From Lewinellaceae bacterium SD302 (lineage in GTDB: Bacteria > Bacteroidota > Bacteroidia > Chitinophagales > Saprospiraceae), in NCBI GenBank assembly GCA_002591745.1, contig PDLQ01000003.1, positions 62,001 to 126,000 on the forward strand: a DNA stretch of 64,000 nucleotides, in the 5' to 3' direction. The translations under genes were made by a program, and so were the position numbers. Numbering within the stretch: the stretch's first letter is position 1; each line of letters opens with the position of its first letter. The notes beneath the pieces are model-generated. The model was not told the DNA's origin, searched no databases, and saw only the letters and a program-made list of their open reading frames with translations. This document shows, piece after piece, positions 148 through 30,951 of this stretch.

Positions 148-1884
148 TCAGTCGTTTCCTTCTTCCAGTACCCATTTCTTTCTTCCCAGCCAGATCCATT
201 CTACTTCTGCCAAATTAACCTCCGGGTCGATGTATGGATAGTATTTGCCGTCATTCAGCCGGGCCTTGATCTTAGCGTAAACCTGACAGGAATTACCAGT
301 GGTATCGGCGCATTCGCTCGCCAAATGATGGGCAAACTGCAGAATCATATCCGGATGAGTATAGAGCTTGCGGGCCTGGCGAGGGTAGAGACGATCGCGG
401 GGATACACCTTGGTTTCTTTGCCGGTGGAATCAATGATGCGGAAGTAGCCGCTGCCCCTCTTAGAGCGAAGCATCATTCGCCAGCTGTAGCGATGGCCTT
501 CTTCGGTCCAGCCGACGTCGCCGGGGATGAAATGGTGGCGCAGAGGCAAGAATACGTGAACGGCAATTATAGCAGCCAGCAGTAGAGTCACCCAGGGCGT
601 AAAGATTGGACGGTCGTAATTATCAAACCAGTCTTCCCTTTCACTTTCGAGTTGACCAACGAAAGGATTATGACCCGTATATTTCGGAAGCGGTGATGGT
701 TCGGCGTCAGCATTTCCAACATTGCTACCCCGTCCGGCTTCGTCTTCGGCCGGGCAGGTTTGAAGTCCAACAAAATGACTTTCCCAGCGCAGTTGTAATT
801 TCCTTACCCAATTCCATTTGCTCCCCAGCCAGTTGACGAACCGCCCCGGCCAGTCCGGTTCAAACCAAAGTGAGCTCATCACCAGCGAGAGGTAGGGGAA
901 GATGCCGATATTGAAGATCAGGTGATTCATTGCGTGGAAGAAAACCACCGCCGCCAGGGCCCACCAGCGCAGCCGTTTGTGGAGCAGCAAAAAAGCTACG
1001 CTGAGGTCCAGCAGAAAACCACCCCAGGCAAACAGATAAGCGGTTTCCTTAAGTTCCAGTAATGGCCCGATCAGCAAGATATCCCCGCGTGCGCTCAACC
1101 AGCTGTGTAGCGGACTGGCCTGCAATAACCAATCGGCATTGATCTTTGCAACCCCGCCGAAGAAATAGACGATGCCCATCATGAGCGGAAACAACGCTAT
1201 GCTCCAGCGAGGGCAGACCCTGGATCGTGCCATTGGTTTTCGCCAGGCATCGAAGGACAACTCCCGCCAGGCGGGGGTAAATACAATCAACCAGGCCAGC
1301 CAAGAAAAAAGGTAGGCGTGATTGAGGTAATGGGCCTTTTCCAGCAAAAAAAGATAACTGAAACTAATGGCCAACACCGGCGCTGCTATCCGGAAGCGAT
1401 AGCCCACGGCCACGGCAATTCCCGCAAGGAACCCGGTGATGAAAAACAAAGAAAAGAAGGGTTCCGGTAATGGGTGCACCCATTCGAACCCATAATAACG
1501 GAAAGTGAAGCCGGCGAAGGCATCCTTATACCAGTGATAGTAGATGCCATTGCCCAAAATATCTCCTCCGCCGAGTAAGCCGATGGCGATACGCAGCCAG
1601 ACGAGGGTATGGATGGGAACGGGATCTTTTAGACGGGCGAAGCCCTGGTGGACGGGCTGCGCCCTTTTAGACGCCTGCGGCTTTTGGACGGCCGTTGGCC
1701 TGGTGGACGCTTCGCTTTTGGACGTCGCTGCGCGACTTTTTGGGGCTTCTTCCTCGTCTTTTAATGGTTCCAAAGTCAAATTCTTGTTTTTTAGAAGAAG
1801 CCTCCCCAAAAGGGCTTTAGCCCGTCCAAAAGATCGCTTCAGCGATCGTCCAAAGGGCGCCGCCCGTCCAAAAGCCGCAGGCAT
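148..1884 (-). CDS. HTTM / vitamin K-dependent gamma-carboxylase-like membrane protein
   Basis: A 578-residue integral membrane protein. From about residue 90 it matches the HTTM (VKG-carboxylase-like) family: a hydrophobic N-terminal domain with several transmembrane segments, a GGVAKINADWL stretch, HAMNHLIFNIG in a later helix, and a C-terminal soluble part with WTEEGHRYSWRMMLR, as in bacterial VKGC relatives. The reaction is unknown in bacteria. The first ~88 residues are low-complexity, basic and rich in FGR and SKS motifs, and are encoded by an array of short hairpins (see 1635-1882). The only in-frame ATG is at 1884, inside the last hairpin, and I find no convincing alternative start before the domain. 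The gene begins 3 nt after the stop of the Gfo/Idh/MocA gene, suggesting one transcript. The family is fairly secure; the N-terminus is doubtful. Confidence 0.75.
   Translation of the reverse strand: MPAAFGRAAPFGRSLKRSFGRAKALLGRLLLKNKNLTLEPLKDEEEAPKSRAATSKSEASTRPTAVQKPQASKRAQPVHQGFARLKDPVPIHTLVWLRIAIGLLGGGDILGNGIYYHWYKDAFAGFTFRYYGFEWVHPLPEPFFSLFFITGFLAGIAVAVGYRFRIAAPVLAISFSYLFLLEKAHYLNHAYLFSWLAWLIVFTPAWRELSFDAWRKPMARSRVCPRWSIALFPLMMGIVYFFGGVAKINADWLLQASPLHSWLSARGDILLIGPLLELKETAYLFAWGGFLLDLSVAFLLLHKRLRWWALAAVVFFHAMNHLIFNIGIFPYLSLVMSSLWFEPDWPGRFVNWLGSKWNWVRKLQLRWESHFVGLQTCPAEDEAGRGSNVGNADAEPSPLPKYTGHNPFVGQLESEREDWFDNYDRPIFTPWVTLLLAAIIAVHVFLPLRHHFIPGDVGWTEEGHRYSWRMMLRSKRGSGYFRIIDSTGKETKVYPRDRLYPRQARKLYTHPDMILQFAHHLASECADTTGNSCQVYAKIKARLNDGKYYPYIDPEVNLAEVEWIWLGRKKWVLEEGND
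1635..1882. repeat. Two-armed array of short hairpins with conserved 8-bp spacers
   Basis: The left arm (1635-1736) holds six tiny hairpins with 3-nt loops: GGGC-GAA-GCCC, GGGC-TGC-GCCC, GCC-TGC-GGC, GGCC-GTT-GGCC, GC-TTC-GC and GTCGC-TGC-GCGAC. Each is preceded by an 8-bp spacer of the type TTTTGGAC, TTTTAGAC or TGGTGGAC. The right arm (1812-1882) holds four (GGGC-TTTA-GCCC, GATCGC-TTCA-GCGATC, GGGCG-C-CGCCC, GCC-GCA-GGC) separated by GTCCAAAA, the reverse complement of the left spacer. The arms meet around matching TTTTGGGGCTTCTTC and GAAGAAGCCTCCCCAAAA stretches, so the whole is a large imperfect palindrome. It fills the junction between two genes and is translated as the N-terminus of the downstream one. 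Confidence 0.8.
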
Positions 1885-1887
1885 CTA

Positions 1888-3036
1888 CTAGCACGGCGTC
1901 CAGACCGCTCCCGCCTTACTGCTCTCCACTGCGGCGATGATAAATTTCATCCCGCGTAAGCCATCTTCCGGGGTTGGAAAGTCTTTGGCCAGTGGATTCG
2001 GTTCCTCACCAGCCAGCCGGGCCTGCACGCAGGTGGCAAAGTTCTTGTAGATATTGGCGAATGCTTCCAGGTAGCCCTCGGGATGGCCGGCGGGGATACG
2101 ACTGGCGTACTGAGCCGCTTCGCTAAGTTCGCCAATGCCGGTGCGGTAAATTACGGCCGGCTGATCCTGCCGTTTGAAGATGAGTGAATTAGGCTGCATC
2201 TGATGCCACTCCACTCCCGCTTTAGTACCGTAAATCCGGATATTCAGGGCATTTTCCTCCCCTACGGAAATCTGGCTGCAGTGCATGATCCCCTTGGCCC
2301 CACCTTGGAAGCGCAAAAGGATGTTTCCATCGTCATCCAGTAACCGACCGTCGACGAAAGCGCTGAGGTCTGCGCAGAGTTCATCGATTTTGAGCCCACT
2401 CATGTACTCCGCCAAATTTTCAGCGTGGGAGCCAATGTCGCCCATCGCGCCGGCGATACCACTGCGTTTAGGGTCGGTACGCCAGGCAGCCTGTTTCGAG
2501 TCACTGTCTTCCACCTTAGTGGCCAACCAGCCCTGGGGATATTCAACAACGACTTTACGGAGTTCGCCCAATTCCCCCGCTGCGATCATATCGCGGGCCT
2601 GCTTCACCATCGGGTAGCCCGTATAATTGTGGGTGAGGGCAAAAATCAAACCGGTCTTTTTGGTGAGCTCCACCAGTTCTTCGGCTTCTTCCAGGCTGAA
2701 GGTGATCGGCTTATCGCAAACAACGTGAAAACCGTTTTCCAGCGCCATCTTAGCCGGGCCGAAGTGAACGTGGTTGGGCGTTACAATACTCACGAAGTCC
2801 ATCCGGACCTCAGCCGGCAGATTTTTTTCCTTTTCGATCATCTCGGCGTAGGAACCGTAGACCCGGCTGGGGTCCAGGTAAAAATCTTCCCCGCTAGCTT
2901 TCGATTTTTCAGGGCTGCTACTGAAGGCTCCGCAGACTAGTTCGATTTGTTGGTCCAGGGCCGCAGCCATCCGGTGTACGCCGCCGATGAAGGCACCCCG
3001 GCCACCGCCGACCATGCCCATTCTGATCTTTCTCAT
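1888..3036 (-). CDS. Gfo/Idh/MocA-family oxidoreductase
   Basis: A 382-residue NAD(P)-dependent sugar or inositol dehydrogenase-type enzyme. The Rossmann fold starts at residue ~5 with GMVGGGRGAFIG. The EKP-like motif appears as CDKPITFSLEEA near residue 110, and the C-terminal Gfo/Idh domain carries GDIGSHAENLAEYMSG, with the usual active-site His. Length fits the family. The substrate cannot be told from sequence, but the GGRGAFIGGVHR opening is typical of Bacteroidetes members linked to sugar or glycoside oxidation. No secretion signal is seen, so it is cytoplasmic. It precedes the HTTM gene on the same strand with 3 nt between stop and start. Confidence 0.85.
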   Translation of the reverse strand: MRKIRMGMVGGGRGAFIGGVHRMAAALDQQIELVCGAFSSSPEKSKASGEDFYLDPSRVYGSYAEMIEKEKNLPAEVRMDFVSIVTPNHVHFGPAKMALENGFHVVCDKPITFSLEEAEELVELTKKTGLIFALTHNYTGYPMVKQARDMIAAGELGELRKVVVEYPQGWLATKVEDSDSKQAAWRTDPKRSGIAGAMGDIGSHAENLAEYMSGLKIDELCADLSAFVDGRLLDDDGNILLRFQGGAKGIMHCSQISVGEENALNIRIYGTKAGVEWHQMQPNSLIFKRQDQPAVIYRTGIGELSEAAQYASRIPAGHPEGYLEAFANIYKNFATCVQARLAGEEPNPLAKDFPTPEDGLRGMKFIIAAVESSKAGAVWTPC

Positions 3037-5450: not shown

Positions 5451-5520
5451 TCATTAAATCATTCTATCATTGCCTCATTACCTCATTGAATCATTGTCTC
5501 ACTCCCTCATTAAATCATTC
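5451..5520. repeat. CATTnAATCATT-type tandem repeat
   Basis: An AT-rich stretch made of repeated TCATT units such as TCATTAAATCATT and TCATTGAATCATTG. It directly precedes the nucleotidyltransferase start at 5524. A related array with both orientations lies at 41203-41305. Confidence 0.6.
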
Positions 5521-6270: not shown

Positions 6271-6553
6271 AAAATCAACATCAATTCAATACATCTAACT
6301 ACTTAATAGTTAGCTGCTTATACTTAAAAAAGCGCCATAACAGTCAGTTTACAAAAGAATTTTAGCGCGTTTCGCTGTCCTGTTACGGCCCGATTCTCCC
6401 TTTATCTTTGATTCGTCAACGAGTTAAAAATTATTGTTGATTGTTTTTTTGAGATTATTTAACAGGTCGTTTTATTTATTTTTCAACAGGTCGTTTTACT
6501 TTTTTTTTTGGATAAACTAGAAAATACGAATAGATACAAATTATAAAATATCC

Positions 6554-30873: not shown

Positions 30874-30951
30874 TGGTGGTCGATGAGAGACTCGAACTCC
30901 CGACCCCCTCGGTGTAAACGAGGTGCTCTAAACCAACTGAGCTAATCGACC
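30874..30951 (-). tRNA. tRNA-Val (anticodon TAC)
   Basis: The reverse strand folds as a full cloverleaf: acceptor GGTCGAT/ATCGACC, D-arm GCTC-AGTTGGTTTA-GAGC, anticodon stem CCTCG/CGAGG with loop TTTACAC (anticodon TAC), T-arm GGGAG-TTCGAGT-CTCTC, discriminator A and an encoded CCA. It reads GUA and, by wobble, other Val codons. A hairpin terminator follows. Confidence 0.96.

Follow-up and report, generated by a model that had tools for sequence, protein, structure and literature searches.

Here we describe an array of ten small hairpins in the genome of Lewinellaceae bacterium SD302, found within a stretch of 64,000 nucleotides (contig PDLQ01000003.1, positions 62,001 to 126,000; hereafter the window). 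The array occupies window positions 1627-1887, between a gene for an HTTM protein and a gene for an oxidoreductase, and consists of two opposed arms (6 + 4 hairpins) around a 75-nt centre. Judged from sequence comparisons, we regard it, with a probability of roughly 55%, as one copy of a dispersed, Lewinella/Neolewinella-specific foldback element located at the 3' ends of genes, which resembles repetitive extragenic palindromic (REP) sequences and bacterial interspersed mosaic elements (BIME). This reading is carried by the architecture of the element, in which tag-plus-hairpin arms face an often palindromic centre, by its recurrence with shared and ordered stems, and by the anchoring of the arms at stop codons. 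Moreover, arrays turn over between species at one orthologous locus where the C-termini of the flanking proteins hardly shift, and the N-terminal peptide that the array would contribute to the HTTM protein is unconserved. A first-pass annotation of the window had recognised the hairpins, while overlooking that the array begins at the stop codon of the upstream gene and that this arrangement recurs genome-wide.

Architecture and recurrence of the hairpin array

Each stem of the left arm is preceded on its 5' side by a tag of the form T[A/G]GAC and followed on its 3' side by TTTT or TGGT. The spacers of this arm are all 8 nt long and read, in order, TTTTAGAC, TGGTGGAC, TTTTAGAC, TTTTGGAC, TGGTGGAC and TTTTGGAC, while those of the right arm read GTCCAAAA, GTCCAAA (7 nt) and GTCCAAAA, the reverse complement of the TTTTGGAC-like left type. 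The constant 8-bp spacers of the first-pass annotation are thus nearly right, except that they carry substitutions and that one of them measures 7 nt. Folding of the window array gives z = -9.25 with DNA and z = -9.84 with RNA parameters, with none of 200 dinucleotide shuffles being as good in either case, which together with direct reading and a unit parser bears out the ten hairpins in two opposed arms. By itself, TTTTGGAC is not over-represented within the window (4 found, 3.5 expected). The covariance models of Rfam 15, applied to the whole window at gathering score, identified only a tRNA (30877-30951) and left the array unmatched, and a search of a plasmid collection with the array region returned 14 records, all matching the oxidoreductase coding part alone.

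The genome search for spacer-plus-hairpin repeats which the first-pass annotation had proposed was carried out and reveals many further copies. In the 5.48-Mb genome, the pair TTTTGGAC-N5-20-TTTTGGAC occurs 31 times, compared to a single occurrence of the reversed control pattern, and the CTTTTRGACG pair occurs 54 times, compared to none for its control. In 64 fetched segments of this genome (267,900 bases) we parsed 46 clusters with 228 units. Since these segments were fetched mostly for containing the tag (100 of 157 tag places listed), the 46 clusters represent a sample and not a census. Pairing between the spacers is evident even if it is not demanded: among 172 spacer-to-spacer intervals collected with no pairing requirement, 105 are fully Watson-Crick paired (3.2 expected from shuffled letters), 25 contain one non-pair and 42 contain more. 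The general features of REP sequences, i.e. short palindromes that are extragenic and present in many copies, are hence found in these clusters.

About ten stem classes make up the arms (GCTTCGC, GCCTGCGGC, GGCC-NNN-GGCC, GCGC-NNN-GCGC, GGGC-NNN-GCCC, GGGCTAAAGCCC, GTCGCTGCGCGAC, GATCGCTGAAGCGATC, GCTCGTTCCTCGC and GCTCGGCTTCGCCTCGC), which share the spacer alone and no single consensus palindrome. Units are 7-17 nt long, with stems of 2-6 bp that start with G-C pairs and loops of mostly 3-4 nt. Covariation of the stems, suggested by the earlier statement that they vary while keeping their pairing, was rejected, as the departures from the module consensus comprise 7 two-sided pair changes compared to 37 one-sided ones (31 broken, 6 G-T). 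Four of the seven two-sided changes, moreover, come from one stem, GGCGTAAACGCC, which is possibly a class of its own. The variety of stems is thus a mix of discrete, reused modules and not covarying drift. Of the earlier interpretation, the template-like structured repeat, to which we could likewise assign no named class, and the doubt about the peptide are supported, while a drift of stems with pairing kept is not.

The modules also show a positional order. Among 69 arms, GATCGC..GCGATC takes the innermost position 14 times (mean on shuffling 5.3, with 0 of 5000 shuffles reaching 14), GCGC is outermost 13 times (5.1; 2 of 5000), GCTCGGC.. is outermost 10 times (4.0; 2 of 5000) and two inner stem classes are outermost 0 times (9.4 on shuffling; 0 of 5000), where these tests were picked after the position table had been viewed. 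On the tag strand, 91 of 138 triloops are of the TNC type (GNA on the other strand) and 7 are GNA; the closing pair is C-G in 135 of the 138, with the unit caller requiring paired outer bases. Mini-hairpins of the C-GNA-G form, a subject of the published literature, show exceptional stability as single-stranded DNA.

Stop codons at the array edges and the HTTM reading frame

Of the 52 arm ends that face an incoming gene, 40 fall in the interval from -3 to +2 nt around its stop codon; for 25 of the 52, the TAG of the tag is itself the stop codon (distance -3). Beside genes running away, 4 of 20 arm ends lie within 0-4 nt. Stop usage at the array ends (n = 48) is TAG 41, TGA 4 and TAA 3, with a background of TAG 56, TAA 38 and TGA 13 in 107 long open frames of the same segments. 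A corresponding placement is found in relatives, where 12 of 18 array starts have an incoming open frame, eight of them at -3, two at 0, one at 3 and one at 7.

For the 38 clusters in which both neighbours are seen, the gene context is convergent in 17, tandem in 19 and divergent in 2, compared to 6, 32 and 7, respectively, for the 45 gene pairs of the window. This excess of convergent contexts would fit ordinary intrinsic terminators that act in both directions between genes and are repeated to strengthen them, as would the GC hairpins, which in either arm are followed by TTTT when read along the strand of the incoming gene. Terminator action of the arrays is possible, but as the explanation of the arrays it appears quite unlikely: single units are poor intrinsic terminators, with T-runs of four and some stems of 2 bp, terminator-like sites near the window array number 2 compared to 1.0 expected, and the shared stem set would be left unexplained.

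On the other side of the array lies the HTTM gene, with the left arm upstream of it. The open frame at 148-1884, starting with ATG, is as the first-pass annotation states, and the residues upstream of the conserved domain derive from the array and its core. The annotation had doubted whether this peptide is real, and had named its conservation in relatives as evidence against its own view of the array. We looked for such conservation and found the array-encoded peptide, as judged by eye, absent in 20 of 20 genus relatives, in which unrelated sequence precedes the domain; several of them have short starts (MPLPLFR, MPNELKSLFR or MRKALFK). The frame can be read through the arm because arm sequences contain no stop codons except the TAG-type tags, and two other arrays likewise extend the frame of a gene running away (d = -207 and -132; own gene calls). 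Our simple codon model sets the HTTM start at 1773, within the array core. Hence, the long N-terminus is most likely a by-product of stop-free arm sequence. A genuine array-encoded peptide under protein-level selection could point to the 578-aa open frame with its ATG at 1884, but in view of its absence from all 20 relatives, the stop-free composition of the arms and the similar extensions at two other arrays it is highly improbable. Predicted proteins can acquire false N-termini from such arrays, as is probably the case for HTTM.

Table 1. Positions of the array, its parts and the adjoining genes in the window.
Feature	Position	Strand	Basis
Left arm, six tag-plus-hairpin units	1627..1736	+	direct reading and parser
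Left-arm stem GGGCGAAGCCC	1635-1645	+	parser
Left-arm stem GGGCTGCGCCC	1654-1664	+	parser
Left-arm stem GCCTGCGGC	1673-1681	+	parser
Left-arm stem GGCCGTTGGCC	1690-1700	+	parser
Left-arm stem GCTTCGC	1709-1715	+	parser
Left-arm stem GTCGCTGCGCGAC	1724-1736	+	parser
Centre (75 nt), TTTTTGGGGCTTCTTC...GAAGAAGCCTCCCCAAAA, itself an imperfect palindrome	1737..1811	.	sequence
Right arm, four inverted units	1812..1887	-	direct reading and parser
Right-arm unit GGGCTTTAGCCC	1812-1823	- (inverted)	parser
Right-arm unit GATCGCTTCAGCGATC	1832-1847	- (inverted)	parser
Right-arm unit GGGCGCCGCCC	1855-1865	- (inverted)	parser
Right-arm unit GCCGCAGGC	1874-1882	- (inverted)	parser
Consensus spacer TTTTGGAC	1682..1689, also 1716-1723	+	motif count in window
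Consensus spacer, opposite orientation	1824..1831, also 1866-1873	-	motif count in window
Array edge: tag TAGAT (1887-1883) immediately after the TAG stop (1890-1888) of the upstream gene	1883..1890	-	d = 0
Gfo/Idh/MocA-type oxidoreductase gene, runs into right arm	1888..3036	-	open reading frame list; annotation of most DNA matches
HTTM open frame, ATG at 1884, 578 aa; conserved domain starts near 1620	148..1884	-	open reading frame list; comparison with relatives

Distribution, turnover and possible origin

A tag-pair search of 398 genomes of the family matched eight, six of them within the genus (21 searched); the two outside the genus contain single non-hairpin matches. Sister arrays are present in N. 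agarilytica DSM 24740 and N. antarctica DSM 105096. In public genome contigs, opposed hairpin arrays are restricted to Lewinella/Neolewinella among the 80 matches listed of at least 96, as judged by eye. The other matches listed are mostly plain tandem repeats or chance matches, and among them one from Chloroflexi and one from Brevibacillus show a palindromic interval that recurs in tandem. None of 11 matches in viral contigs revealed a hairpin array by eye.

Arrays at different loci share parts. The idiosyncratic stem GCTCGN2-7CCTCGC occurs 70 times, compared to 11 times for the reversed control, and is directly preceded by T[A/G]GAC in 26 of 54 distinct contexts. By eye, it is combined with GTTAGTAC-like spacers at eight loci and with TTTAGGAC-like spacers at five, and such stems common to arrays with different spacers indicate either copying between loci or spacer divergence after copying. 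The cores are partly shared as well: the motif ATCGAAGACT/AGTCTTCGAT (at most one mismatch) is present in 9 of 28 cores of this genome (0.11 expected), and a different core, GGCTACCGCAC...GTGCGGTAGCC, is common to arrays of the relative ANT-68. Variants of this second core occur in N. antarctica and, for one of its sides, in genome G018.

Turnover of the arrays can be followed at the convergent pair of peptide deformylase and an RNase H-like gene, which was recognised in 14 of 20 genus genomes with stop-to-stop distances of 3, 15, 15, 21, 29, 45, 67, 75, 90, 111, 119, 196, 249 and 661 nt. This genome carries a full two-armed array of 249 nt at the locus, N. agarilytica a 29-nt miniature (TAGACG-CTACGC-TTTAAGACG-TCGCTTCGCGC), and ANT-68 runs into an array at the contig end. 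In G017 and N. antarctica the repeats carry different tags (TAGTC, TAGTATG), and a gene of the 23S_rRNA_IVP family (IVP) lies between hairpin arms in G009. Folding clearly better than shuffles was observed for this genome (z = -10.7), G009 (-4.3) and G011 (-3.2), the values resting on a rough shuffler. In 20 of 20 genomes, the C-termini of the deformylases lie no more than about 2 residues apart, as do those of SmpB (both by eye). The varied distances combined with near-constant C-termini suggest that arrays arrive or grow beside the stop codon without much change to the protein. When array positions were compared between species, one of 12 array-flanking proteins from relatives matched one of the 45 of this genome (45% identity), to which the deformylase gene is to be added, since it ends in an array here and in ANT-68. 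A generic scan of the relatives for hairpin clusters (29 found, 12.2 expected) was too weak to use.

These data could also be explained by growth in place, whereby stop-adjacent sequence is duplicated and mirrored by slippage or template switching across a palindrome, with no mobility involved. In line with this, the repeats at the deformylase locus differ by species and often begin with TAG (TAGACG, TAGTC, TAGTATG; by eye), and ANT-68 arrays contain tandem block duplications (three loci). Yet unlinked arrays have idiosyncratic stems in common (the imperfect palindrome GCTCGTTCCTCGC, for instance, recurs among arrays whose spacers differ), as well as the positional order of modules and sometimes the core, which requires copying between loci. 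Growth in place is an unlikely explanation.

Alternatively, the arrays may be gene-less relatives of elements that carry an IVP gene (PF05635) between inverted arms, comparable to rRNA intervening sequences (IVS). A PF05635 profile search of eight genomes yielded 31 matches, seven of them in this genome. Two of the seven lie between hairpin arms of the present type, which both begin at the stop codons of the neighbours; one locus (C60:182254) has TTTTGGAC arms, the other (C82:142511) TTAGTAT arms together with some stems known from the arrays described here. Strong inverted repeats, with 10 or more inverted 9-mers spanning the gene, were found at 15 of 27 IVP loci, compared to 0 of 18, 0 of 19 and 0 of 19 loci of three control genes (0/56). 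Furthermore, the ANT-68 core string GGGCTACCGCACATTGGAG agrees at all but 1 of 19 positions with the inner edge of an IVP element of N. agarilytica (L372), and looser variants of it occur at another N. agarilytica locus (L358) and in R3_Bin_139 (L360). Against such a relationship, a gene is present in one parsed element only (two of the 46 clusters), the window array contains no PF05635 match, and most IVP arms are, by eye, simple tandem repeats and not hairpin modules. Inverted repeats of the same strength are as frequent at loci of Y1 transposase genes (13 of 26) and thus mark mobile-type loci, not IVP alone. Finally, the 10-mer GGCTACCGCA (at most one mismatch) occurs at 11 of 30 IVP, 2 of 19 deformylase, 8 of 19 SmpB, 3 of 20 HTTM and 12 of 29 Y1 loci; without enrichment at IVP loci, the IVP link rests on longer strings. 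We consider this relationship possible, if on the doubtful side. As separate observations, many of the IVP genes inspected lie between opposed arms of locus-specific short tandem repeats, one of them with GAGATTGG-like and CCAATCTC-like words, and an AT-rich palindrome of the CGTTTATAAACG / ATATACG type was seen by eye beside six IVP and two Y1 genes in several species.

Mobility might instead be provided in trans, the arrays being miniature elements akin to REP doublets forming hairpins (REPINs) that are moved by a REP-associated tyrosine transposase (RAYT), i.e. a Y1 HUH transposase which recognises single-stranded hairpins with a GGAC/AGAC foot. The hairpins with their constant foot do resemble REPs, the triloop units are predominantly of the C-TNC-G type with C-G closure (see above), Y1_Tnp genes are present in 20 of 21 genus genomes, and one Y1 gene of N. 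agarilytica (L287) has, by eye, GCGCTTCGCGC-type stems in its flanks. Conversely, the tag TTTTRGACG is found at 0 of 29 Y1 loci of relatives, with one TTTAGGACG at one of these loci (L279). The array-rich genomes, this one and ANT-68, have one Y1 match each and G018 has none, compared to five in N. agarilytica and three in N. antarctica. The single Y1_Tnp match of this genome (C59:8170-8415) is flanked by its own long palindromes of the CCGGTGGAGGACCTCCGG type, which are unrelated to the array tag. Movement by such a transposase is thus improbable.

In conclusion, we prefer the reading as a dispersed foldback element at gene 3' ends, against which several points have to be weighed. Twelve of the 52 incoming-gene arm ends lie away from the stop codon, although one of them (-110) goes back to a stray unit that the parser placed within a gene, the stop of which actually abuts the array; within the window, the right arm alone faces an incoming gene; and the gene calls derive from our own simple codon model. 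At least two elements (C60:181910/182635 and C69:31813/31974) are each counted as two clusters, and overlapping contig ends may double-count a few of the 228 units. The motif ATCGAAGACT is confined to 9 of 28 cores and is missing from the core of the window array, and 7 of 10 testable deformylase intergenic regions fold at z values of 1.0 to -2.1 (rough shuffler). The poor terminator properties described above have to be added to this list, as has the failure to find a dedicated transposase (no TTTTRGACG at the 29 Y1 loci of relatives).

If the dispersed-element reading is correct, the element would be transcribed as the 3' end of the gene or genes running into it, and a hairpin-rich 3' untranslated region (UTR) would start about 3 nt after the stop codon and act as an RNA structure. 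Such hairpins could affect ribosome release, 3'-end stability and read-through from a convergent neighbour. In E. coli, REPs within 15 nt of the stop codon stall ribosomes (PMC12306157), which by analogy makes an effect of the arrays on translation plausible. The arms may lengthen via tandem duplication of units or blocks, and the whole element may be copied between loci. A more far-reaching and doubtful proposal is a new class of stop-codon-targeted foldback elements, with a palindromic core that may or may not contain an IVP gene and with arms of interchangeable hairpin modules copied between arrays with differing spacers. Their growth and insertion would be aimed at stops, mostly TAG, perhaps via an RNA- or ribosome-linked step that involves IVP. 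If true, hairpin modules and spacers combined in this way at translation stops would amount to a type of mobile DNA which we did not find described in the literature searched. Irrespective of this proposal, the arrays represent a bacterial repeat with edges that fall on translation stops rather than just anywhere between genes, and with units drawn from a finite and ordered set of hairpins. They offer a clean system for studying the spread and growth of small palindromes, and for asking whether hairpins in the 3' UTR, 3 nt past the stop codon, affect translation, while the IVP link of some elements provides a handle on a widespread protein family.

Other repeats were encountered during these searches. 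Another dispersed repeat, whose ends resemble AAGAGCTTGTTAGGA and CTGACAAGCTCTTAA and which contains TTTTGGACGATGRGTGA or its reverse complement by chance, was met at four loci, and a recurring motif of the CAAAGTAGCAA / TTGCTACTTTG kind lies beside genes at seven. Eleven matches in the Prevotellaceae metagenome-assembled genome Pc512_bin106 contain many tandem words, e.g. TTTTGGAC, TTTTAGAC and GGTTGGAC, with no hairpin separating them. Another repeat array may underlie the reversed control pattern (GCAGRTTTTC pairs) in G293, where it was counted 43 times, and in G231 and G406, with a count of 10 in each. In the window, short tandem repeats with 24-bp units are located beside genes at 5451-5519 and 6446-6507.

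Comparison with known systems

No description of such arrays was found in the open-access literature searched, in which the sole paper containing both 'Lewinella' and 'palindromic' concerns Herpetosiphon. Small proliferating hairpins are known as palindromic or hairpin repeats of mitochondria and plastids, those repeats being organellar. To our knowledge, neither opposed tag arrays nor stop anchoring occur among them.

The 23S rRNA IVS with an S23p/IVP gene are similar in that some loci of the kind described here hold an IVP gene within an insert able to form a stem. The Coxiella IVS has been described as a selfish element that RNase III excises (PMC4990558). In contrast to IVS, the arrays are located at the stops of protein genes and not in rRNA, and nearly all parsed arrays are gene-free. 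Like REPINs, which are inverted pairs foldable as one hairpin (PMC3116915), the arrays are inverted around a centre; they differ in having many units per arm, and a RAYT gene flanked by the repeat was not encountered (0 of 29 Y1 loci with TTTTRGACG).

The CGTC superfamily of REPs (Di Nocera 2013), which includes Bacteroidetes (PMC3733652), resembles the arrays in its flanks, as the stem is flanked by CGTCC when read on one strand. In the published units, stems of 8-9 bp start with A-T pairs and enclose loops of 4-5 nt, and the units form mainly HH dimers (PMC3733652), whereas the stems here start with G-C, are shorter and form long arrays. With REP sequences and BIME in general, the arrays share short palindromes in many copies that are extragenic, mostly downstream of genes and often in opposite orientation (PMC3733652), as well as a mosaic arrangement (PMC2817692). 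Compared to them, the units described here have stems of 2-6 bp and loops of 3-4 nt and are lined up head-to-tail, separated by a single spacer that hardly varies; in place of a common consensus palindrome there are about ten stem classes in positional order, which share the spacer only, and the array starts at the stop codon itself. While the tested defining features of CGTC-tagged REPs and of REPIN/RAYT systems are thus absent, the closest resemblance is to REP/BIME.

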